Notes under the pieces: generated by a model
Told to the model about the DNA's origin: nothing
Databases searched by the model: none
Seen by the model: the letters and a program-made list of their open reading frames with translations, nothing else
Shown: positions 31,102-41,118 of the stretch, piece by piece
Layout: each line of letters begins with the position of its first letter
Numbering within the stretch: the stretch's first letter is position 1
Made by a program: the position numbers and the translations under genes
Assembly: GCA_017482055.1 (NCBI GenBank)
Contig: JAFUOH010000001.1
Location: 218,815-282,814 of the forward strand
Direction of reading: 5' to 3'
DNA length: 64,000 nt
Source: Clostridia bacterium
GTDB taxonomy: Bacteria; Bacillota; Clostridia; Oscillospirales; CAG-272

Positions 31102-31356
31102 TCATATCACTAATCTGTATGTATATTCCACAGCTGTCGAATGCCCTTTAGTAATACGGCTCGTCCGCTCAAATCTCATAGTTCGTACGGGGTTCATATT
31201 CTTGACCATCTGACCGCCGATGGAGCCTGCCTGACGGGAGGTGAGCTCGCCATTGTAGCCCTGCTTGAGGTTTACACCGACTTCGCTTGCTGCCTCCATC
31301 TTGAACTGTTCGAGAGCTGCCTTAGCCTCAGGGACAACGATCTTGTTAGTAGACAT
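31102..31356 (-). CDS. Small acid-soluble spore protein, alpha/beta type, with atypical C-terminus
   Basis: The first 52 residues match the DNA-binding core of alpha/beta SASPs (EAKAALEQFKMEAASEVGVN, then LKQGYNGELTSRQAGSIGGQ and MVK). These proteins coat and protect spore DNA and are degraded by the GPR protease at germination; the EVGVN stretch corresponds to the usual cleavage region. AAGGAG precedes the ATG. The last 32 residues (NMNPVRTMRFERTS onward, ending RLVI) do not resemble the usual short helical tail, so the 3' end may have been replaced. The gene is monocistronic and is direct evidence for a spore-forming organism. Confidence 0.85.
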   Translation of the reverse strand: MSTNKIVVPEAKAALEQFKMEAASEVGVNLKQGYNGELTSRQAGSIGGQMVKNMNPVRTMRFERTSRITKGHSTAVEYTYRLVI

Positions 31357-31656: not shown

Positions 31657-32745
31657 ATGAACGACACATTTAAAAAGCTTCCCGACACCGTTATGCTCGA
31701 TGAGTCCGCGCCTGCGCTGGTTATCATCGACCAGACTCTTCTTCCGACAGAATTGAAGCTTATAAGTCTTTACGAACAGGACGAAATATGGGGCGCCATA
31801 AAGAAACTGAAAGTCAGAGGTGCACCTGCCATCGGTGTTGCCGCAGGAATCGCGCTTTATCTTGCCGCGCATGCAATTTACAAAAAAGGCGTATGCGACG
31901 GAACAGAGTTCCTTTGTAAGCTGAAAGAAGCCAAGGATTATCTTGCCTCCTCCCGCCCGACTGCGGTCAACCTTTTCTGGGCGCTTGATCGTATGTACAA
32001 AGCAGCAGAGCTGTTTATTAAAGGCGGAGGGACTGTCGAGGCGTGTATTGATAGATTGTGTGAGGAATGCAAGGCGATACGGGACGAGGACATAGCATCC
32101 TCCCGTGCGATCGGTGAATACGGACTCACTCTGCTGAAGGATGGCTTCGGTATTCTCACACATTGCAATGCAGGTCAGCTTGCTACCGTGCGTTACGGTA
32201 CCGCGCTTGCACCGATTCATGTCGGACGGGAAAAGGGAATGAAATTCAAGGTCTACTGTGACGAGACGAGACCTTTACTCCAAGGCGCTCGCCTGTCGTC
32301 CTATGAGCTGATGTGCGACGGTGTGGATACCACGGTAATATGCGATAATATGGCATCGCAGGTGATGAAGGATGGCAAGATTCAGGCAGTCATCGTCGGC
32401 GCTGACCGCATTGCGGCAAACGGAGACGCGGCAAACAAGATAGGCACATCGGGTGTGGCTATTCTTGCCAAGTATTACGGCATCCCGTTTTACGTTGCCG
32501 CTCCGCGCTCGACCATTGATGTCACGCTGAAATCGGGCGAGCTTATACCAATAGAACAGCGAAAGCCGGACGAGGTCACCGAAATGTGGTACGAAAGCCG
32601 TATGGCGCCCCAAGGCGTGGGCGTGTTCAACCCTGCGTTCGACGTAACTCCGAATGAGCTGATCACTGCTATTATCACCGAATGCGGCATCATAAAACCG
32701 AACTATACCGAAAACATAGCAAAGATCATGGAGGTGAAGAAATGA
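31657..32745 (+). CDS. mtnA: S-methyl-5-thioribose-1-phosphate isomerase
   Basis: The 362-residue protein interconverts 5-methylthioribose-1-phosphate (and the 5-deoxyribose analogue) and the corresponding ribulose-1-phosphate. It carries the family blocks VRGAPAIGVAAGIALYL, LTHCNAGQLATVRYGTALAP with the catalytic Cys170, VYCDETRPLLQGARLSSYEL, and IVGADRIAANGDAANKIGT with the catalytic Asp250. Length is normal for MtnA. The ribosome binding site is AAAGGAGG. Its stop overlaps the start of the class II aldolase gene by four bases. No other methionine-salvage gene (mtnK, mtnB/C/D, MTA nucleosidase) is in the window. Confidence 0.95.
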   Translation: MNDTFKKLPDTVMLDESAPALVIIDQTLLPTELKLISLYEQDEIWGAIKKLKVRGAPAIGVAAGIALYLAAHAIYKKGVCDGTEFLCKLKEAKDYLASSRPTAVNLFWALDRMYKAAELFIKGGGTVEACIDRLCEECKAIRDEDIASSRAIGEYGLTLLKDGFGILTHCNAGQLATVRYGTALAPIHVGREKGMKFKVYCDETRPLLQGARLSSYELMCDGVDTTVICDNMASQVMKDGKIQAVIVGADRIAANGDAANKIGTSGVAILAKYYGIPFYVAAPRSTIDVTLKSGELIPIEQRKPDEVTEMWYESRMAPQGVGVFNPAFDVTPNELITAIITECGIIKPNYTENIAKIMEVKK

Positions 32746-33374
32746 CCGACACCGAAAAGAAGCTAATAGCCGATATGATCGACGTTGGCAATAAAATGTA
32801 TCTGCGCGGGTTTGTGGCGGCAAACGACGGTAATCTGAGCGTGCGCTGCCCCGACGGAGAATCTGCGCTTGTCACTCCTACGGGAGTGTCCAAGGGCGGT
32901 ATGACCGAGGATATGTTCATCAAGGTGCGTATCTCGGACGGTGAGGTGCTGGAAGGTTCGCGCAAAGCCTCCAGCGAGGTAAAAATGCATCTGCGGCTTT
33001 ACCGCGAAAACTCTGACATCTGCGCCGTAGTACACGCGCATCCCCTTTACGCTACCTCATTTGCCATCGCACGTCAGCCTCTCGATGCGCCGATCTATCC
33101 CGCCGCGATGATGAATCTCGGCACAGTACCGGTAACCGAGTATTCTCCGCCCGGAACCGAAGGTGTGGCAGACTCGGTGGCGCCGTTTGCAAAAGAGTAC
33201 CGCGGACTGCTTTTGGCAAGTCACGGCGCGCTTACATGGGCGCGGGATATTCTCACTGCGTGGTATCGGATGGAGGAGCTTGAAAATTTCGCGCATATCA
33301 CCTTTAACACGAAATACGTTATGAAGCAAGCGGCGGAAGTGCCCACAATAGAGCGGCTTCCCGATAAAAAGTAA
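32742..33374 (+). CDS. Class II aldolase, probable Ald2-type aldolase of the DHAP shunt
   Basis: The 210-residue product has the class II aldolase/adducin fold of L-fuculose-phosphate aldolase: GNLS (residues 30-33), TPTGVSKGGM (45-54), the acidic residue of SSEV (Glu79), and zinc ligands HAH (98-100) and SHG (His161). Alone it could be a fuculose- or rhamnulose-phosphate aldolase. Its translational coupling to mtnA (ATGA overlap at 32742) instead suggests cleavage of methylthioribulose-1-phosphate or 5-deoxyribulose-1-phosphate to DHAP and an aldehyde, as known for the mtnA-ald2 pair of Rhodospirillum rubrum and pathogenic E. coli. The start at 32742 is preceded by GGAGG. Confidence 0.85.
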   Translation: MTDTEKKLIADMIDVGNKMYLRGFVAANDGNLSVRCPDGESALVTPTGVSKGGMTEDMFIKVRISDGEVLEGSRKASSEVKMHLRLYRENSDICAVVHAHPLYATSFAIARQPLDAPIYPAAMMNLGTVPVTEYSPPGTEGVADSVAPFAKEYRGLLLASHGALTWARDILTAWYRMEELENFAHITFNTKYVMKQAAEVPTIERLPDKK

Positions 33375-33468: not shown

Positions 33469-34860
33469 TTATTGCGACTCACGCGTTGCGCCCCAGATCA
33501 CCTCGTGGTCGTACCAATTCCAATCATCGTCCCAGCCCTCCGGCTTTGACTCCGCTTCGCAGTATATTTTTAAAGTGTTTTTATAATAACGTCCTATTAC
33601 AAACTCGTCCACGGTGACGACGGACGCGGGAATATACAGGTATTCGAGGTCGGAGCAGTCTAAAAAAGCACCGTATCCTAGCCTTGTTACAGTATCGGGA
33701 AGCACTATTGACTTTATGCCGGAGCGACATGCAAACGCATATTTCCCGATAGCCTTGATCCCTTCGGGGATAACTGCGTTGTTGGCGCTTGCTATAACGG
33801 ACATGTCCGCGCGGTCGATAAGACAGTTGCCCTCCGAATAAAAGTTAAAACATCCGTCTGCCACAGTAATATTTTCAAGCTCGAAGCAATACCAAAAAAT
33901 ATCAAGAGTGTCAATAAGACGCATTGTTGACGGAAAAGTGACCGATCTGAGCTTATAGCAGTCGGTGAAAGCACACTTGCCTATACTGACGACGCCTTCG
34001 GGAATTACTGCATTCTCAAGCTTTTTACATTTCGAAAAAAAGTAATCGGGCAGCTCTGTTACCCCTCCGAGATCGGGTATTTCGGTCATAGGCGTATAGT
34101 TGAACGCACCGCCGCCTATTTCGACGACGCTGTCGGGAATGTCGAGCGATGTGATCCCCGACCCCGAAAAAGCACACTCGCCGATGTATTTGACACCTTC
34201 CTCAAGCGTGATCGACGTAAGGTTACTGCAGTCACCGAACGCGTAATTGCCGATTTTGTATACTTCCTTCGGAACTGTGATCTCGGTGATCTCGGTGTTC
34301 CCGTAAAATGCGCCGTCGCCGATGACCGTTACGCCATCCGGTATGTGATCACCGTGCACAAGCTCATAATATCCCGGTTCCCCTTTCACAAGACAGCCGT
34401 CAATAAGCATAAAGGTTTTGTTTTCGGGCGGGATGTTGATATTGAAGTTGGCGTTTTCCGTGCGCATATCGCTTACAAACATAAGTGTGTCAAACACGGT
34501 CTGATATTTGCCCAGCGTGATCTCGGAAAGTGAGGTAAGGTCGGGGGTCAGCGCATTGAGCCCGTCCTCGAAGTAGTCGGGCAGAATTATGTGGGTCACG
34601 GCACCGAGCGCTTCCGTCTCGATACAGATAGGTACGTTTATCTGCGTGACACGTCTGCCCTCGTTATCATAGCTTGGAAATTCGAGCGTGGTACCGCGGA
34701 TGTTTTTTACTCCGATCACCGACGCTTCATTGGCGGCGTTGACTCTGAAATAAAATTGCGGTTTTGACGCCGCCTCCGTATAGCTCCATACACAAAAGCT
34801 GACTGTGATCAGAACCGCGGCGAATGCAAGCGGTACAAGCTGCAGCAGACGTTTTTTCAT
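33469..34860 (-). CDS. Secreted or membrane-anchored leucine-rich-repeat protein (LRR_5/BspA type)
   Basis: The 463-residue protein has an N-terminal hydrophobic segment (MKKRLLQLVPLAFAAVLITV and on) acting as signal or anchor. A non-repeat region of about 130 residues follows, then at least seven LRR_5 repeats of about 23 residues (for example IGDGAFYGNTEITEITVP, IGNYAFGDCSNLTSITLEEG, IGKCAFTDCYKLRSVTFPS). Such proteins are usually surface adhesins or binding proteins. I chose the ATG at 34860 with GGAG seven bases upstream. There is no cell-wall anchor motif at the C-terminus. It lies 53 bases downstream of the GTPase gene on the same strand and may be read from it. Confidence 0.82.
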   Translation of the reverse strand: MKKRLLQLVPLAFAAVLITVSFCVWSYTEAASKPQFYFRVNAANEASVIGVKNIRGTTLEFPSYDNEGRRVTQINVPICIETEALGAVTHIILPDYFEDGLNALTPDLTSLSEITLGKYQTVFDTLMFVSDMRTENANFNINIPPENKTFMLIDGCLVKGEPGYYELVHGDHIPDGVTVIGDGAFYGNTEITEITVPKEVYKIGNYAFGDCSNLTSITLEEGVKYIGECAFSGSGITSLDIPDSVVEIGGGAFNYTPMTEIPDLGGVTELPDYFFSKCKKLENAVIPEGVVSIGKCAFTDCYKLRSVTFPSTMRLIDTLDIFWYCFELENITVADGCFNFYSEGNCLIDRADMSVIASANNAVIPEGIKAIGKYAFACRSGIKSIVLPDTVTRLGYGAFLDCSDLEYLYIPASVVTVDEFVIGRYYKNTLKIYCEAESKPEGWDDDWNWYDHEVIWGATRESQ

Positions 34861-34913
34861 GGGTAGCTCCATTCCTTTCTGACAAGTATGAAAAATGCCC
34901 CGCTTTTCATACT

Positions 34914-37478
34914 CTACCCTCCAATATATTCCCTTATCTGACGTTCCGCTTCCTCTACCTCGGCGCGCAGACCGTTTGCACTGACGCGTATCGCGCCGCT
35001 GCCGAGGATTATGAGCTGCTCCTGACCGTCAGAGGTGGCGACACGGACTCGGTGGGTTTTGGCAAGCTCGTGGGACGCGCGTTCGATGTAGGTGTCGGCG
35101 GTCTCGGCTTCCTTGGTGTACACCACCGTGATACCGGCGTGCTTCTCCACCTCGCCGGGATTGCGCTTGACCTTGTACGCATCGAACACTATTATTATAT
35201 CACAGTTGCGCAGTCCTCTGTAGTTGCAAATTCTATTGATAAGTTCCCCCCGCGCAAGATCCAGGCTCTTCTCGGAAAGTGCACGCAGATCGTCCCAGGC
35301 ATAGATGATGTTGTAGCCGTCAATGAGCAGATATTCCGAACCGCTGTAAAGAGACGGTCCGCTGCTGTGAGGTCTCGGTTTTTTCTGCGGTACCGCCGAC
35401 TTTACTTTCGGTTCGTTGAAATTGCGCTTTTTTATGGGACCATAGGTCTTTTCGAATATACGCATCAGCTCCTCGTTGTCGGCGACGATGCGCATATATC
35501 TTTGTACGCGGGTCTCAACCTCTTCCTCGTCGGGTGTATCAAGCTCCACGCCGCTGTCAAGATGCTTGTAGCTCGGTACATCGTCCCACTTTACCACAAA
35601 TCCCGCGCCGTGGTCGCAGAATACCGAATCGGCGGTATTTTCCACATCGCGGTCGGCATCGTAGCCGCTCTCGGCGATGACTGTTTCGGCATCTTTGCAT
35701 TCCTCATAGCCCCGCAGGGAGGTGAACAGCTTGCCGCTGCCCTTGGTGTACCCCACAAGCTCGCGGTGATAGCCGCGCATTTTTGCGACGGGTGCGCTTC
35801 CTGCAAGCACCATACCGTCGGTGAATGTTTCGGGATCGCCGAATCTGCCGCCCATCTGCGTAATATCTGTCATGGCGCGTCCGATACTTTCGGCGGGCAC
35901 CTCCAGCCTGAAATCATACCACGGCTCAAGCAGTACGCATTCCGCAGAGCGCAACCCCTGTCTGACAGCGCGCCATGTGGCTTGCCGAAAGTCTCCTCCC
36001 TCGGTATGTTTGGCATGTGCCCTACCCGCGATAAGTGTGATCTTTACATCGGTGATCGGGGAGCCTGTCAAGGCGCCGATATGCGTTTTTTCGTAAAGGT
36101 GGGACAGCACCAGCCGCTTGTAGTTGCCCTCCAATGCGCATTCTCCGTCCACAGCAAAGCGGATGCCTTCACCGCGGGGGAGCGGTTCAAGCAATAGCTG
36201 CACCTCCGCATAATGGCGGAGCGGCTCGTAATGTCCGATGCCGACCGTCGCCGAGCGGATTGTCTCGCGGTAGGCGATGCTGCCGTCGCTGAAGGTCACG
36301 TCCATGCCGAAGCGCTCTTTTATGATGCGGGTCAGCACCTCAAGCTGCACCTCGCCCATGATGCCGAAATATATCTCACCGCGCCGCTCATTGTAGATTA
36401 TATGCAGTGCGGGCTCTTCCTCCTCAAGACGGCGGAATTTCATCAATGCCGTGTGTATGTCAATCCCTCCGGGCAGATCCACGCGGTAGGACAGCACAGG
36501 TTCAAGATGCGCCGCGCCCGAATCCTTTTCAAAGCCGAAGCCCTGTCCCGGGTATGCGCCCGACACGCCTGTCAGCGCGCAGATCGTGCCTGCCGTAACC
36601 TCATTTACCGTTTTGAACTTTTCGCCCGAATAAATGCGTATTTGGTTGATCTTTTCGGAAAAGGGTGTACCATCGGGGCTTGTGCCGGATATGGTGTCCT
36701 TGACTTTCAGTACACCGCCTGTTAGCTTTATGTGAACGACCTTGTCGCTTTTATCCTGCGTGATCTTATATACCTTGGCGCCGAAATCGTTGCCGTATTC
36801 GGGAATACTCACATATTTCGTGAGACCGTCAAGCAGCAGATTTATACCGTCGCCCTTGAGCGCCGAGCCGAAAAAGCAGGGGAACAGCCGACGCGCACCA
36901 ACTGCGTTTTGTATATCCTCGTTTTTGAATTTCTCACCCGAAACATAGCTCTCCATAAGCGTCTCGTCGCACATGGCAAGCTCGTCCGAAAAGCTCTCGA
37001 GCGTCATTGCGCAGAAATCCACACATCCGTCGCCGAGCTTATACTTTAGCTCCTCCATCAGCTCACGGTGGGCAAGGGCGGTGATATCCATCTTATTTAT
37101 GAATATCACTGTGGGGATATGATAGCTCTCAAGCAGCCGCCACAGCGTTACGGTGTGGCTCTGCACGCCGTCGGTTCCGCTTATGACCAGTACCGCGCAG
37201 TCGATGACTCGCAAAACACGTTCGGTCTCGGGGGAAAAATCCACATGTCCCGGTGTGTCGAGCAAAGTAAACTCGATATCGCCGCAGGTGAAATTTGCAC
37301 CGCTTGAAAAAATGGTGATCCCTCGGTCGCGCTCAATCTCGTTTGTGTCAAGGTGGGAATCGCCCTTGTTTACGCTTCCGAGCTTATGAAGTATACCTGT
37401 TTTGTATAGTATCGCTTCGGACAATGTGGTTTTGCCCGAGTCTACATGAGCTATTATGCCGATAGTTAGTTTTTTCAT
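34914..37478 (-). CDS. Tet(M)-like ribosome-protection GTPase fused to a Rae1/YacP-like NYN nuclease domain
   Basis: The first about 640 residues form an EF-G-like translational GTPase of the tetracycline-resistance ribosomal-protection group: G1 AHVDSGKTT (residues 10-18), switch I RGITI, G3 DTPGHVDF, G4 NKMD, then EF-G domains II-V. Residues about 715-854 form an NYN/PIN-like domain (LLIDGYNIIYAWDDLRAL, IIVFDAYKVKRNPG, KEAETADTYIERAS, VATSDGQEQLIILGSGAIR) with the acidic catalytic residues preserved (about Asp720, 766, 795, 817). It closely resembles B. subtilis Rae1 (YacP), which cuts mRNA in the ribosomal A site. Both halves would act at the A site. The gene overlaps the upstream AraC gene by four bases (ATGA) and is translationally coupled to it. 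Real tetracycline resistance is not proven. Confidence 0.88.
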   Translation of the reverse strand: MKKLTIGIIAHVDSGKTTLSEAILYKTGILHKLGSVNKGDSHLDTNEIERDRGITIFSSGANFTCGDIEFTLLDTPGHVDFSPETERVLRVIDCAVLVISGTDGVQSHTVTLWRLLESYHIPTVIFINKMDITALAHRELMEELKYKLGDGCVDFCAMTLESFSDELAMCDETLMESYVSGEKFKNEDIQNAVGARRLFPCFFGSALKGDGINLLLDGLTKYVSIPEYGNDFGAKVYKITQDKSDKVVHIKLTGGVLKVKDTISGTSPDGTPFSEKINQIRIYSGEKFKTVNEVTAGTICALTGVSGAYPGQGFGFEKDSGAAHLEPVLSYRVDLPGGIDIHTALMKFRRLEEEEPALHIIYNERRGEIYFGIMGEVQLEVLTRIIKERFGMDVTFSDGSIAYRETIRSATVGIGHYEPLRHYAEVQLLLEPLPRGEGIRFAVDGECALEGNYKRLVLSHLYEKTHIGALTGSPITDVKITLIAGRAHAKHTEGGDFRQATWRAVRQGLRSAECVLLEPWYDFRLEVPAESIGRAMTDITQMGGRFGDPETFTDGMVLAGSAPVAKMRGYHRELVGYTKGSGKLFTSLRGYEECKDAETVIAESGYDADRDVENTADSVFCDHGAGFVVKWDDVPSYKHLDSGVELDTPDEEEVETRVQRYMRIVADNEELMRIFEKTYGPIKKRNFNEPKVKSAVPQKKPRPHSSGPSLYSGSEYLLIDGYNIIYAWDDLRALSEKSLDLARGELINRICNYRGLRNCDIIIVFDAYKVKRNPGEVEKHAGITVVYTKEAETADTYIERASHELAKTHRVRVATSDGQEQLIILGSGAIRVSANGLRAEVEEAERQIREYIGG

Positions 37479-38293
37479 CGCTCTCCCTCGCTTTGACCTG
37501 CCATACGGCGGTATTCGGTGGGAGTAAGACCCGTTTCCGACTTGAATGTCTCACGAAAATACGCTGCTGAGTTGAAGCCATTTTTGCCGGCGACCTCGTC
37601 GATGGTCAATCCTGCGATGCGCAGATCGGCGGCGGCGCGCTCGATTCGAAGGGCGTTGCGGTATTTTATAGGTGTGGTGCCGAGCTCGTCGCGAAACAGA
37701 TGATAAAGCCGCGACTCGCTGACGTGACAGACCGCCGCGAGCTTGTCAATAGCAAAATCCTCGGCGTGGTGTGTATCTATATACTTGGTAGCCGTTACTA
37801 CCGCTGAGCTGTATTTAGGCGTGTCGGCATATTTGAGAATAGGCAGAATATCTGCGTATAGGCTGTAGTAAATACCCAGCGCACGGATCATATTGACCCG
37901 TTCTTCCGTGGAAAACAGTGCGTGTATCTCACCGATGCGTTCGCCGACTTTATCTATACCGTGTATATCAACAAGCTGGAGTGCGAAGCTGCTCGCGGAG
38001 TCGGAGATATCCACCTTTTTTGAGATAATGCGCAGACTGTAGTATTCGATCTCGGGCGCGCCGCGCCAGACCGCACTGTAACGTATCCCCTCGGGGATAA
38101 ACAGCAGCTCACCCTCTCCCACATGAATGCTTTTGGACAGAGAGCTTATGGTTACGCTGCCTTTGACGACATAAACAAAGGTAGAGTTTTTCTGCCCCAT
38201 TCCCGCGTCAAAATATTGCGGACGGTCAAAGTGCATCCGTCCGATATTTAGCTCTGTCATGCAGAGCTTCTTCTTATATATGCAGTTATTCAT
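37475..38293 (-). CDS. AraC family transcriptional regulator coupled to the GTPase-nuclease gene
   Basis: A 272-residue protein with N-terminal cupin domain (TFVYVVKGSVTISSLSKSIH, GEGELLFIPEGIRYSA) and C-terminal AraC DNA-binding domain (AIDKLAAVCHVSESRLYHLF; IDEVAGKNGFNSAAYFRETF; GLTPTEYRRM). The ATG at 38293 has GGAG six bases upstream; in-frame codons up to 38365 lie in the promoter and are excluded. It heads an operon with the GTPase gene, which points to a self-regulated unit, perhaps responding to a compound that affects ribosomes. That link is inference. Confidence 0.85.
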   Translation of the reverse strand: MNNCIYKKKLCMTELNIGRMHFDRPQYFDAGMGQKNSTFVYVVKGSVTISSLSKSIHVGEGELLFIPEGIRYSAVWRGAPEIEYYSLRIISKKVDISDSASSFALQLVDIHGIDKVGERIGEIHALFSTEERVNMIRALGIYYSLYADILPILKYADTPKYSSAVVTATKYIDTHHAEDFAIDKLAAVCHVSESRLYHLFRDELGTTPIKYRNALRIERAAADLRIAGLTIDEVAGKNGFNSAAYFRETFKSETGLTPTEYRRMAGQSEGER

Positions 38294-38336
38294 GTATACT
38301 CCGTTAAAATTCAGCAGAATTGTTGCGTTAATTGAC

Positions 38337-38365
38337 ATTATAGCATATTTACAACCTTGTGTCAA
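38337..38365 (-). promoter_or_regulatory. Promoter of the AraC-GTPase operon
   Basis: On the minus strand, TTGACA (38360-38365) and TATAAT (38337-38342) are spaced by 17 bases: a near-perfect sigma-A promoter. Confidence 0.85.
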
Positions 38366-38588
38366 TATGGTACAATTAAATTGTATGTGGGCGTTGCCAC
38401 ACGCCCTGTGTTACGTGCCGTCATTTGGGCGGTGCAGGGCGGGGGAACAATCTGCTCTCAGATGCCGATCCGAAGCTTCCCACAATGCTCTCTTACTTGG
38501 CTCGGCTTGATTCCTTGTCATACGGAAAGATTGAATTCAATTTTTGCGAAATAACATGATCCTAAGAAATAAAAAGGAGAACCACACT
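38366..38588. other. Intergenic region before the quinone oxidoreductase operon
   Basis: The left part is GC-rich and can fold into hairpins (GGGCGT/ACGCCC near 38390-38407; GCCCTG/CAGGGC from about 38405 to 38441). The right part is AT-rich and holds the AAAGGAGA ribosome binding site of 38589. I cannot place a confident plus-strand promoter, and short frames here do not look coding. Confidence 0.4.
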
Positions 38589-39572
38589 ATGAAAGCCATA
38601 CTTATAAACCCCGATAAGTCGCTCACCTGGAGCGAGGTGTCGGATCCGATCGTCGGCGACGAGGATGTGCTCGTTGAAATACACTGCGCTGCGCTCAACC
38701 GTGCCGATCTTATGCAGCGTGAGGGAGATTATCCGCCGCCTCCCGGCTGTCCCGAGTGGATGGGACTTGAGATCGCGGGAAAGATCGTTGAGATCGGTAA
38801 GACGGCGGCAGAAAAGTCTGACTGGAAGCTCGGAGATGAGGTCTGCGCACTGCTTGGCGGCGGCGGTTACGCCGAATATGTAAACGTCAAGTATGATATG
38901 CTCATGCCCGTACCGAAGGGACGCACACTCATTGAGGCTTCCGCTATGCCCGAAGCATATGCCACCGCGTATCTGAATCTTTTCATAGAAGGTAAGGCTA
39001 AAGCGGGGGACACACTGCTCATGCACGCGGGTGCAAGCGGTCTTGCGTCGGTAGTCATCCCTATGGCGAAGGCGTTCGGTCTGCGCGTTATCACCACCGT
39101 ACTGTCAGAAGAAATTGCCGAGAAGATAAAGCCCCTGGGTGCGGACGTTGTTGTAAATACAAGAAAAGAAAATATCGCTGATGTATTAAAGGCACAGCTT
39201 GAAGCGGGTCATCCCGTGGATGTTGCCATCGACTGTCTCGGCGGTGAGATGATGGGCGGCTGTCTGCCCTATCTCTCACACGGTGCGCGCTGGATAATGA
39301 TCGCTGCGCTTGCGGGAACCAAGACCGAGATCGACCTTAAAAACATCTATGTCCGAAATGTGCGCATCATAGGCTCCACACTGCGTTCCCGTACTCCGGA
39401 ATTCAAGGCGCAGCTCCTTTCCGAGCTTGTGGAAAAGGTATGGCCCAAGGTTGAAGCGGGTATGATGAAGCCATCCATTTACAAGGTGCTTCCCATTACC
39501 GAAGCCGAAGCCGCTCATGCTATTCTGCAAAACGGCGAGAACGTTGGAAAGGTAGTTTTGCAGGTGAAATAA
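38589..39572 (+). CDS. NAD(P)H-quinone oxidoreductase-like zinc-free MDR enzyme (PIG3/QOR type)
   Basis: The 327-residue protein has the MDR catalytic domain (residues 1-130; LNRADLMQREGDYPPPPGCP, GLEIAGKIVEIG, GDEVCALLGGGGYAEYV) and a Rossmann domain (LMHAGASGLASVVIPMAKAF). The catalytic zinc cysteines and histidine of alcohol dehydrogenases are absent, as in quinone reductases of the TP53I3/PIG3 group. The ATG at 38589 follows AAAGGAGA. It starts a three-gene operon with an AroD-like enzyme (2-base gap) and an SDR, so it probably acts on an enone or quinone intermediate of a short pathway. Confidence 0.87.
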   Translation: MKAILINPDKSLTWSEVSDPIVGDEDVLVEIHCAALNRADLMQREGDYPPPPGCPEWMGLEIAGKIVEIGKTAAEKSDWKLGDEVCALLGGGGYAEYVNVKYDMLMPVPKGRTLIEASAMPEAYATAYLNLFIEGKAKAGDTLLMHAGASGLASVVIPMAKAFGLRVITTVLSEEIAEKIKPLGADVVVNTRKENIADVLKAQLEAGHPVDVAIDCLGGEMMGGCLPYLSHGARWIMIAALAGTKTEIDLKNIYVRNVRIIGSTLRSRTPEFKAQLLSELVEKVWPKVEAGMMKPSIYKVLPITEAEAAHAILQNGENVGKVVLQVK

Positions 39573-39574
39573 TT

Positions 39575-40342
39575 ATGAAGCCTACGTTTTTGCAGTACGA
39601 CAAGCCTCTTCTGTGCGCCATGATACAGTGCCGCACACCCGAGGAATGTATTGACAAGATAAGGTTGTCAATATCCGAGGGCGCGGAGGCGCTGGGTATC
39701 CAACTTTGCAAGATAAAGAGGGAATACCGAACTCCCGAAATACTAAAGGAGATATTTGCCGCTTGTAAGGGCAGACCGATATATGTGACATCATACCGTC
39801 ACGGCGAGAGTACCGGTATGAGCGATGAGGAATGCGCCGAGCTTTTGCTTATGGCTCTGGACTGCGGTGCGACGCTTATTGACGTGTTTGGCGATATGTT
39901 CGAAAAGGGTGCAAAGTATCAGCTTGCCACTGACAATGCGGCGGTGGAAAAGCAGAAGGTGCTTATTGCCGAGATACACCGTCGCGGCGGCGAGGTGCTG
40001 ATGTCCTGCCACACAAAAAGCAGTCTTACGGTGGAGGAAAATATTGAGCTCGCACGCGCACAGGTGGAGCGCGGAGCGGATGTTATCAAGATAGTGGACG
40101 AATGCAGTGATAAAGGGGAGATACCGTCGTATATCGAGTCAATACAGAGGATCACGGCGATGACCGATAAAAAGCTTCTGTTTCTTGTCAGCGGAGAGGG
40201 TCGGATCATCCGCTATATCGGCGCGAATTTCGGCGTGTGTATGTACCTTTGCGTGGCATATCACGGAGAGATTGATACTCCCGCACAGCCGCTGCTCTCA
40301 AAGCTCAAAGTCATGCGCGATAATATACTATTTGACAATTAA
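39575..40342 (+). CDS. Type I 3-dehydroquinate dehydratase-like enzyme
   Basis: The 255-residue protein is a TIM barrel of the class I AroD family. The Schiff-base lysine lies in GADVIKIV (Lys172) and the catalytic histidine in LMSCHTKSS (His146); an arginine-rich substrate loop (TSYRHGEST) is also in place. The segments differ enough from biosynthetic AroD that another substrate is likely. In an operon with a quinone-reductase-like MDR and an SDR rather than with aro genes, a catabolic role (quinate/shikimate-like or another keto-acid dehydration) is possible. Confidence 0.75.
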   Translation: MKPTFLQYDKPLLCAMIQCRTPEECIDKIRLSISEGAEALGIQLCKIKREYRTPEILKEIFAACKGRPIYVTSYRHGESTGMSDEECAELLLMALDCGATLIDVFGDMFEKGAKYQLATDNAAVEKQKVLIAEIHRRGGEVLMSCHTKSSLTVEENIELARAQVERGADVIKIVDECSDKGEIPSYIESIQRITAMTDKKLLFLVSGEGRIIRYIGANFGVCMYLCVAYHGEIDTPAQPLLSKLKVMRDNILFDN

Positions 40343-40356
40343 CGGAGGAAAAACTC

Positions 40357-41118
40357 ATGGATTTTACGGGAAAGGTTGCCGTTTCCACAGGAGCGGCATC
40401 GGGAATGGGTTTATTGTTTTCGCAGAATATTTCCGAGCTTGGCGGAAACGTGGTAATGTGCGACGTTAACGAAGCGGTGCTTTCGGAAAAGGTTGCGGAA
40501 ATCAATTCAAAGAACGGCGGACGCGCTCTCGGCGTAGTATGCGACGTGCGCGATTATGCACAGGTGTGCAATGCCCGCGACGAGGCGGTAAAGGCATTCG
40601 GACGCATTGACATCATGGCGAACTTTGCCGGCGGTACCGCAGTCAGAATGTGTAAGGTAGACAAGGAAAAGTATCCGGAATTCCCCGATGTGCCGATAGA
40701 TGTGTACGACTGGGGCATTGATGTGAACCTGAAAGGACCGTTCTACTTCGCTCATGCAGTCTTGAAGCAAATGCGTGAGCAGAACAGCGGACTTATCGTA
40801 AACATAGGCTCCATTTCGGGCGTTGACGGTGACCCTTACGGAGTGGATTACCCCACCTCCAAGGCAGGACTTATGTACGGACTTACCAAGTCTATTGCAC
40901 AGTACGGCGCGAAGTATAACATCCGTTGTGTGTGCATCTCCCCAGGACCGGTGCTCACACGCCCGGATATGGCAAATATGAAAACGCTTCTCGGACGTGC
41001 TGCCGAGCCGCAGGAGATAATCGACCTCATCTTGTTTATCGCATCGGAAAAGGGACAGTTCATCGACGGCGAAAACATCATGATCGACGGTGGCAGAGCC
41101 TGCATTAAGCGCAGTTGA
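40357..41118 (+). CDS. SDR family oxidoreductase
   Basis: The 253-residue classical short-chain dehydrogenase has the cofactor motif TGAASGMG (residues 11-18), the NAG-like ANFAGG (88-93), Ser152 in VNIGSISG and the catalytic YPTSK (Tyr165, Lys169). The Asp in VMCDVNE after beta-2 favours NAD(H). GGAGG precedes the ATG. It is the third gene of the QOR-AroD-like operon (14-base gap) and is followed by a strong terminator. Confidence 0.9.
   Translation: MDFTGKVAVSTGAASGMGLLFSQNISELGGNVVMCDVNEAVLSEKVAEINSKNGGRALGVVCDVRDYAQVCNARDEAVKAFGRIDIMANFAGGTAVRMCKVDKEKYPEFPDVPIDVYDWGIDVNLKGPFYFAHAVLKQMREQNSGLIVNIGSISGVDGDPYGVDYPTSKAGLMYGLTKSIAQYGAKYNIRCVCISPGPVLTRPDMANMKTLLGRAAEPQEIIDLILFIASEKGQFIDGENIMIDGGRACIKRS

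Follow-up and report, generated by a model that had tools for sequence, protein, structure and literature searches.

A Translational GTPase Fused to a YacP/Rae1-Like Nuclease Domain in Clostridia, and Its Mutual Exclusion With Separate YacP Genes

The window analyzed here is a 64,000-nucleotide stretch from a Clostridia bacterium (GTDB lineage Bacteria; Bacillota; Clostridia; Oscillospirales; CAG-272), taken from GenBank assembly GCA_017482055.1 (contig JAFUOH010000001.1, positions 218,815 to 282,814 of the forward strand). It contains an intact gene in which an EF-G/Tet-type translational GTPase, a linker and a NYN nuclease domain of the YacP/Rae1 type (NYN_YacP) are joined in one polypeptide (Table 1). 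Both active sites are invariant among the full-length relatives, and the fusion and a separate YacP gene replace one another between genomes, which suggests that the fusion stands in for a separate Rae1 gene in many Clostridia. On the basis of the domain make-up, the invariant active sites and this exclusion, we lean slightly toward the view that a ribosome-entering GTPase brings a tethered Rae1-type mRNA endonuclease to stalled ribosomes.

Rae1 is described as a ribosomal A-site endoribonuclease (PMC6613710; PMC10100781), and the A site is likewise where Tet(M) binds (PMC7456112). NYN domains are also the subject of one further paper (PMC11346440). Atkinson (2015; PMC4342817) reports that Tet proteins of ten Clostridiales species have gained a YacP-like NYN RNase domain, and raises the idea of an RNase-based, possibly new resistance mechanism. 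Hence the fusion is not new, having been described in silico since 2015. The window protein has the defining features of that Tet-NYN family, both domains in one polypeptide from Clostridiales, and given the shared domain pair and bacterial group the two are very probably the same family. Atkinson placed the fusions in the Tet subfamily, whereas here they form a clade apart from Tet(M), Tet(O) and Tet(W); the clade also reaches Erysipelotrichaceae and excludes separate YacP. Literature searches on the domain pair and on the NCBI name, which did not cover the 2017/2018 Rae1 papers, returned no experiment and no second paper on the fusion. The statement in a first-pass annotation of this DNA that no experimental description is known therefore stands within the literature searched, with the qualification that an in silico description already existed.

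Domain Composition and Conserved Active Sites

In Pfam searches the N-terminal part of the protein matched GTP_EFTU at amino acids (aa) 4–223 (E 3.4e-51), EFG_IV (E 3e-16) and EFG_C (E 5.4e-18), with EFG_III marginally over its cut-off (E 2.4e-6) and EF-G_D2 under it (E 1.1e-4). The solved relatives of aa 1–593 are nearly equal in score, with TetO at 234 bits, EF-G at no more than 231 and TetM at 225. NYN_YacP (PF05991) was matched at aa 717–850 with an E-value of 6.6e-46 and 156.8 bits against a cut-off of 24.6, and the C-terminus resembles the Bacillus subtilis YacP/Rae1 structures 5mq8 and 5mq9 (E 8e-24). These matches bear out the first-pass proposal of a GTPase continuous with a YacP/Rae1-like NYN domain. 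Chance joining is ruled out by 75 full-length fusions in other genomes (39–79% identity), and the presence of both domains in a single polypeptide is confirmed as a real fusion. In the window's own genome (1.56 Mb, 54% complete) it is the sole NYN_YacP match. Its NYN covers profile positions 1–136 of 166, and other fusions extend to 163–165.

A scan of genomes returned 130 relatives, from which 80 loci in Clostridia, Erysipelotrichaceae and other Bacillota were retained; the window protein and the 75 complete fusions make up an alignment of 76 rows. The GTPase residues D13, G15–T18, T55, DTPGH at 74–78, N128, K129 and D131 are invariant in all 76. The G1, G3 and G4 motifs noted in the first pass, which mark translational GTPases, are intact, the variable positions among the fusions being S14 (A or S) and M130. 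His78 of DTPGH is, we assume by analogy with EF-Tu and EF-G, the catalytic residue.

The nuclease half is conserved to the same degree at its active site. Asp720, Asp766 and Asp817, singled out earlier as acidic residues of the NYN domain, are real, and Asp795 completes the set as its fourth member; all four occur without exception in the 76 fusions and align with D7, D53, D81 and D104 of Rae1 (in the order 720, 766, 795, 817). Thus both the NYN identity of the C-terminus and its catalytic residues hold across the homologues. Furthermore, 23 positions, the four Asp included, are at least 90% identical in the fused as well as in the stand-alone NYN sets. B. subtilis Rae1/YacP shares the four Asp and, as part of the stand-alone set, the 23 highly conserved positions; it differs in being a small stand-alone protein (181-residue PDB chain), while in the fusion the NYN domain follows a GTPase, and the window's copy of it stops earlier. 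Pairwise ratios of nonsynonymous to synonymous substitution rates (dN/dS) were 0.04–0.07 for the GTPase (four of four pairs) and 0.03–0.06 for the NYN domain (three of four pairs, the fourth not being computable), with dS above 1 in most comparisons. These low ratios indicate that both halves are under selection.

Fused and Separate YacP Across Genomes

Taking the window's class to be Clostridia, we sampled 243 genomes of the class, 147 of the order and 398 of the phylum. Within the order, NYN_YacP was found in 51 of 147 genomes and was fused in all 51. Fifty of these matches lie in open frames of at least 833 aa; the remaining one (G124) lies in a 465-aa frame stopped by the end of the locus, yet a single frame matches aa 399–852, and the genome was therefore counted as fused. 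NYN_YacP occurs in 164 of the 243 class genomes, and among the 150 matches listed 81 are fusions and 65 are stand-alone genes, the other 4 lying in split frames or at the ends of contigs. In none of the 164 did a fusion occur together with a separate YacP above the family cut-off. For the phylum sample the count was 229 of 398, with 20 fused, 127 stand-alone and 3 of intermediate length among the 150 listed. Two adjacent-frame cases (L188 and L189, in genomes G657 and G570), with GTPase and NYN in neighboring frames, may be assembly errors or real splits.

Six genomes with two NYN_YacP matches were re-examined, and none was shown to have both forms over the cut-off, G457 being the one ambiguous case. 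In G633, G677 and G704 the fusion is accompanied by a partial match below the cut-off in a frame of 163–165 aa; G289 has two stand-alone copies with identical scores, and in G380 the gene is interrupted by contig ends. G457, from the phylum sample, combines a fragment at the edge of a contig with a weak match under the threshold in an 892-aa open frame. Exclusion was also put to a hypergeometric test (85 and 65 of 243 genomes), in which about 23 co-occurrences were expected and 0 observed (P 2e-15). We place no weight on this value, because it ignores kinship among the genomes, leaves 14 matching genomes outside the listed rows and counts the four split or edge cases as fused.

Four families (f179, f180, f183 and f198) hold both states. 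The GTPase was searched for and not found in their seven stand-alone genomes (G577, G594, G675, G595, G614, G697 and G574), where the matches were EF-G-like only, with E-values near 1e-32 and mostly within the G domain. Since the fusion and separate YacP replace one another between genomes, one shared job fits, and as far as the searches reach this mutual exclusion is a new line of argument for the fusion carrying out the work of Rae1 at the ribosome.

NYN-Less Relatives and the Age of the Fusion

GTPases of the same kind that lack the NYN domain occur in 8 of 146 class genomes, at 43–46% identity, and four of these genomes also have a stand-alone YacP (G638, G584, G621 and G652). Among 12 further genomes chosen by hand, four (G666, G709, G723 and G747) have an NYN-less member, each with a stand-alone YacP. 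No NYN-less GTPase was found in G491, another of the 12, whose NYN, a stand-alone one, branches next to the fused clade as its sister. Genome G705 (family f24) has an NYN-less GTPase (44% identity, 654-aa frame) and a separate NYN on different contigs; this separate NYN sits within the fused clade, and G705 is therefore a likely case of fission.

A tree of 45 GTPase rows, built by a quick search with the outgroup on a long branch and with no tetB(P) row, puts the fused and NYN-less rows in one group, with support of 99 in the Shimodaira–Hasegawa-like approximate likelihood ratio test (SH-aLRT), and the Tet rows in another (100). When this tree is rooted on its EF-G outgroup (row L184, whose loops are EF-G-like), the NYN-less rows nest inside the fused rows, which suggests loss of the NYN domain. 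In an NYN tree of 82 rows, whose bootstrap had not settled, the 36 fused rows and the G705 row (L197) form a clade (98/89), with the G491 row (L201) as sister (100/99), and the fused or stand-alone label requires two changes on the tree. Two GTPases of 636–649 aa (L185 and L186; 34–36% identity), with the loops HSNPGDF and HTKAPDF, make up a third small group, apart from both Tet(M/O/W) and the fusion clade.

The same data bear on the alternative that this is a fusion of convenience, in which an EF-G-like stress factor and an ordinary Rae1 share a polypeptide with no joint reaction. Each half does occur alone, the GTPase in the eight genomes above and YacP in 65 or more of the 243 class genomes, and in G705 the two are encoded apart. 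Moreover, the linker is of considerable length and shows little conservation; its part at aa 640–715 varies from 61 to 122 residues across the 76 rows, 50 of which have an IFxRTY-like motif. Nevertheless, we consider this alternative unlikely: the fused state seems to be long established and stable, the 36 sampled fused NYN domains forming one clade with a single stand-alone member inside, and relatives of both halves are described as using the same A site (PMC6613710; PMC7456112).

Relation to Tetracycline Resistance Proteins and EF-G

The first pass called the GTPase Tet(M)-like, a label to be used with care. Among NCBIfam models tet_protect (NF012153) does score best; its 392.4 bits fall short of the cut-off of 775 (the EF-G model gives 311 bits), and the protein belongs to a clade apart from Tet and lacks the YSPVS loop. 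Tet(M), Tet(O) and Tet(W) are alike to the fusion in the order of the GTPase domains, at 27–31% identity (BLAST), and differ in loop III of domain IV, in the segment C-terminal to domain V and in having no nuclease domain. All 76 fusions have HTxGxDF in loop III and all 10 NYN-less relatives have HTxGGDF; YSPVS was seen in all six Tet rows (two of them identical) and in none of the 76 fusions or 10 NYN-less relatives. The core pattern of the SVFCxHGAGF motif behind domain V is likewise present in 10 of 10 NYN-less relatives and in 0 of 6 Tet rows. Within this segment C621 is invariant, C594 is present in 74 and H623 in 68 of the 76 rows, and these residues, lying between domain V and the linker, are possibly a metal site. 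EF-G has the same domain order and a His at the aligned tip of loop III (H488 of the fusion aligns with the His within GSYHEVDS of row L184), and differs in loops I and III. The nearest named resistance protein seen is TetB(P), at about 33% identity over aa 1–594, closer than Tet(M/O/W); the match is without a nuclease domain, and the comparison covers overall sequence identity.

These comparisons bear on a second alternative, that the protein shields ribosomes from tetracycline and carries an RNase as an accessory domain, the GTPase expelling the drug and the NYN domain adding an RNase step (Atkinson, 2015). Its case includes the rank of tet_protect, the narrow lead of TetO among solved matches and the proximity of tetB(P), as well as NCBI naming, in which the fusion on an Agathobacter rectalis plasmid and most of the NYN-less relatives from Ligilactobacillus salivarius are TetM-family proteins. 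Loop III is also of the same length in fusions and Tet proteins. Pro509 of the Tet(M) loop overlaps the drug (PMC7456112), and the S508A/P509A/V510A triple mutant of Tet(M) is reported to be active (PMC4750697); with the equal loop length, this means that the loop letters alone leave drug release possible. On the other hand, the score is about half the model cut-off, YSPVS is absent from every fusion, and the quick tree, built without tetB(P), sets the clade apart from Tet. Four genomes have typical tet genes (30–31% identity) alongside the fusion (two each in G568 and G645; also G011 and G265), and such genes occur in genomes without it as well. Plain tetracycline resistance is the less likely function, and resistance with an accessory RNase step seems to us rather improbable.

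The plasmid record also speaks against resistance. Matches were found in 1,242 of 72,556 plasmid records, and two cover at least 80% of the query in one place: full-length fusions on plasmids of Monoglobus pectinilyticus (517 kb) and A. rectalis (252 kb). Among the best 50 of the 1,242 rows, 36 match the GTPase part only, at 40–47% identity. The search of viral contigs, sensitive to close relatives only, found none, and with full-length plasmid copies so few a mobile resistance gene has little support. The M. pectinilyticus protein WP_320690501.1 is 57% identical over its full length; its NCBI name, "translation factor GTPase family protein," is silent on the nuclease.

A Proposed Role at Stalled Ribosomes

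The reading we favor is delivery of a tethered Rae1-type endonuclease to stalled ribosomes by a GTPase that enters them. The broader first-pass interpretation, a rescue or quality-control machine that is coupled to an AraC regulator, gains from the fusion being real, the active sites kept, the C-terminus Rae1-like and YacP replaced, and lacks support for the functional coupling to AraC. We infer ribosome binding, entry into the A site, the order of events and A-site mRNA as the substrate. The GTPase would recognize a ribosome whose A site is vacant or blocked; domain IV would enter the site, GTP would be hydrolyzed and the GTPase would depart. The nuclease, on its linker of variable length, could then reach the vacated A site and cut the mRNA, so that the stalled message would be destroyed and the ribosome made recyclable. 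Both halves should not fit one A site together, and for this reason they may act sequentially or on neighboring ribosomes. If the proposal is true, a nuclease fused behind an A-site GTPase, and swapping with a separate gene, offers a direct handle on Rae1 recruitment.

Several observations weigh against this proposal. NYN_YacP is missing from 96 of 147 genomes of the order, nearly all of them more than 90% complete, which indicates that its function is dispensable, and the exclusion between fusion and separate YacP owes partly to shared descent. The GTPase can evidently act without the NYN domain, since NYN-less members exist both in genomes, four of which have no NYN_YacP match (G592, G557, G559 and G579), and on plasmids of L. 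salivarius. The latter account for 33 of the 36 GTPase-only rows (hits H43–H75, UCC118 included), all NYN-less at 45–47% identity; one copy (L169, 4001–5920) represents them in the GTPase tree. Within the NYN domain, E76, R118, E123 and L124 are conserved in stand-alone YacP and relaxed in the fusions, and the domain end is shortened in 18 of 36 fused rows, the window's included.

Alternatively, the nuclease might act on rRNA or tRNA at the ribosome, in maturation or in shutting off translation, and not in mRNA decay. Maturation of rRNA and tRNA has been suggested as a role of NYN domains, in work cited by PMC4342817. We regard this as very doubtful given that the closest characterized relative, Rae1, is described as an A-site mRNA endonuclease (PMC6613710; PMC10100781), that the fusion replaces Rae1 between genomes and that no PADLOC defense model was matched. 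An anti-phage system was rejected, no PADLOC match having been found.

Returning to delivery of the nuclease to stalled ribosomes, we tentatively extend it, at somewhat less than an even chance, to a GTP-driven two-stroke ribosome clearer that would be the main system of Rae1-type quality control for a sizable fraction of gut Clostridia. In it the GTPase would probe or clear the A site and then pass the site on to the attached nuclease for cutting of the stalled mRNA. If so, the G705 fission and the NYN-less clade would be natural experiments on the coupling of the two strokes. There is also a warning for annotation, as database members named TetM-family resistance proteins may be something else.

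Gene Neighborhood and Regulation

The ATGA overlap between an AraC-family regulator gene (araC) and the fusion gene, reported in the first pass, is real. The near-consensus promoter claimed there is present and closer to consensus than claimed (12/12, plus the TG); it overlaps the AraC start assumed in that annotation. Because the promoter covers this TTG at 38365, and the ATG at 38293 has its own ribosome-binding site, the latter is the more likely start.

Table 1. Coordinates of the fusion gene, its parts and its regulatory region within the window (position 1 is the first letter of the window).
Feature	Position	Strand	Basis
Fusion gene: translational GTPase, linker, NYN_YacP nuclease domain; 854 aa	34914..37478	(-)	Intact open reading frame, Pfam, structure-relative search, alignment
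EF-G/Tet-type GTPase part, aa 1–596	35691..37478	(-)	Pfam and 76-row alignment
GTPase–nuclease inter-domain region, aa 597–716	35331..35690	(-)	76-row alignment
NYN_YacP (Rae1-like) domain, aa 717–850	34929..35330	(-)	Pfam PF05991, B. subtilis YacP/Rae1 match, alignment
Domain IV loop III, aa 485–498, GRAHAKHTEGGDFR	35985..36026	(-)	Alignment
Segment behind domain V, aa 594–626, SVFCxHGAGF motif	35601..35699	(-)	Alignment
Likely ribosome-binding site of fusion gene, within araC end	37481..37490	(-)	Inference
AraC-family regulator gene, ATG start 38293 inferred	37475..38293	(-)	Open reading frame, Pfam, start-site inspection
Consensus sigma-70-type promoter TTGACA-17-TATAAT, TG before -10, upstream of araC and fusion	38337..38365	(-)	12/12

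Coupling to araC is real in the window and is not conserved across the 80 related loci, of which 69 have at least 1 kb and 75 more than 300 bp of upstream sequence. Only one locus (L004) gave an AraC match, a weak one to the helix-turn-helix region, 744 bp upstream and on the opposite strand, and AraC coupling as a conserved trait was rejected. No neighboring family recurs in more than 3 of the 53 loci that have over 2.5 kb on both sides. In the nearest relative (L002, 79% identical) the place of araC is taken by an aldo/keto reductase gene, which overlaps the start of the GTPase gene; the window's homologue of that gene lies 3.7 kb off, with araC and three metabolic genes between.

Quinone oxidoreductase, weakly type I dehydroquinase-like and short-chain dehydrogenase/reductase genes stand in a row at 38544–41118 (+), divergent from araC; in the window they and araC come between the reductase and GTPase genes that are neighbors in L002. 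A divergent promoter-like site (10/12) faces these genes, and for this reason AraC may serve them.

Directly downstream of the fusion gene, at 33469–34872 (-), lies a gene for a BspA-type leucine-rich repeat protein. Further on, at 31657–33374 (+), an MtnA-type isomerase gene (TIGR00512, over cut-off) overlaps a class II aldolase gene, a pair that looks like methylthioribose or deoxyribose salvage. A gene for an alpha/beta small acid-soluble spore protein (PF00269, E 1.4e-25) is found at 31102–31356 (-), in an area with 84% DNA identity to L002, and the host is probably a spore former.

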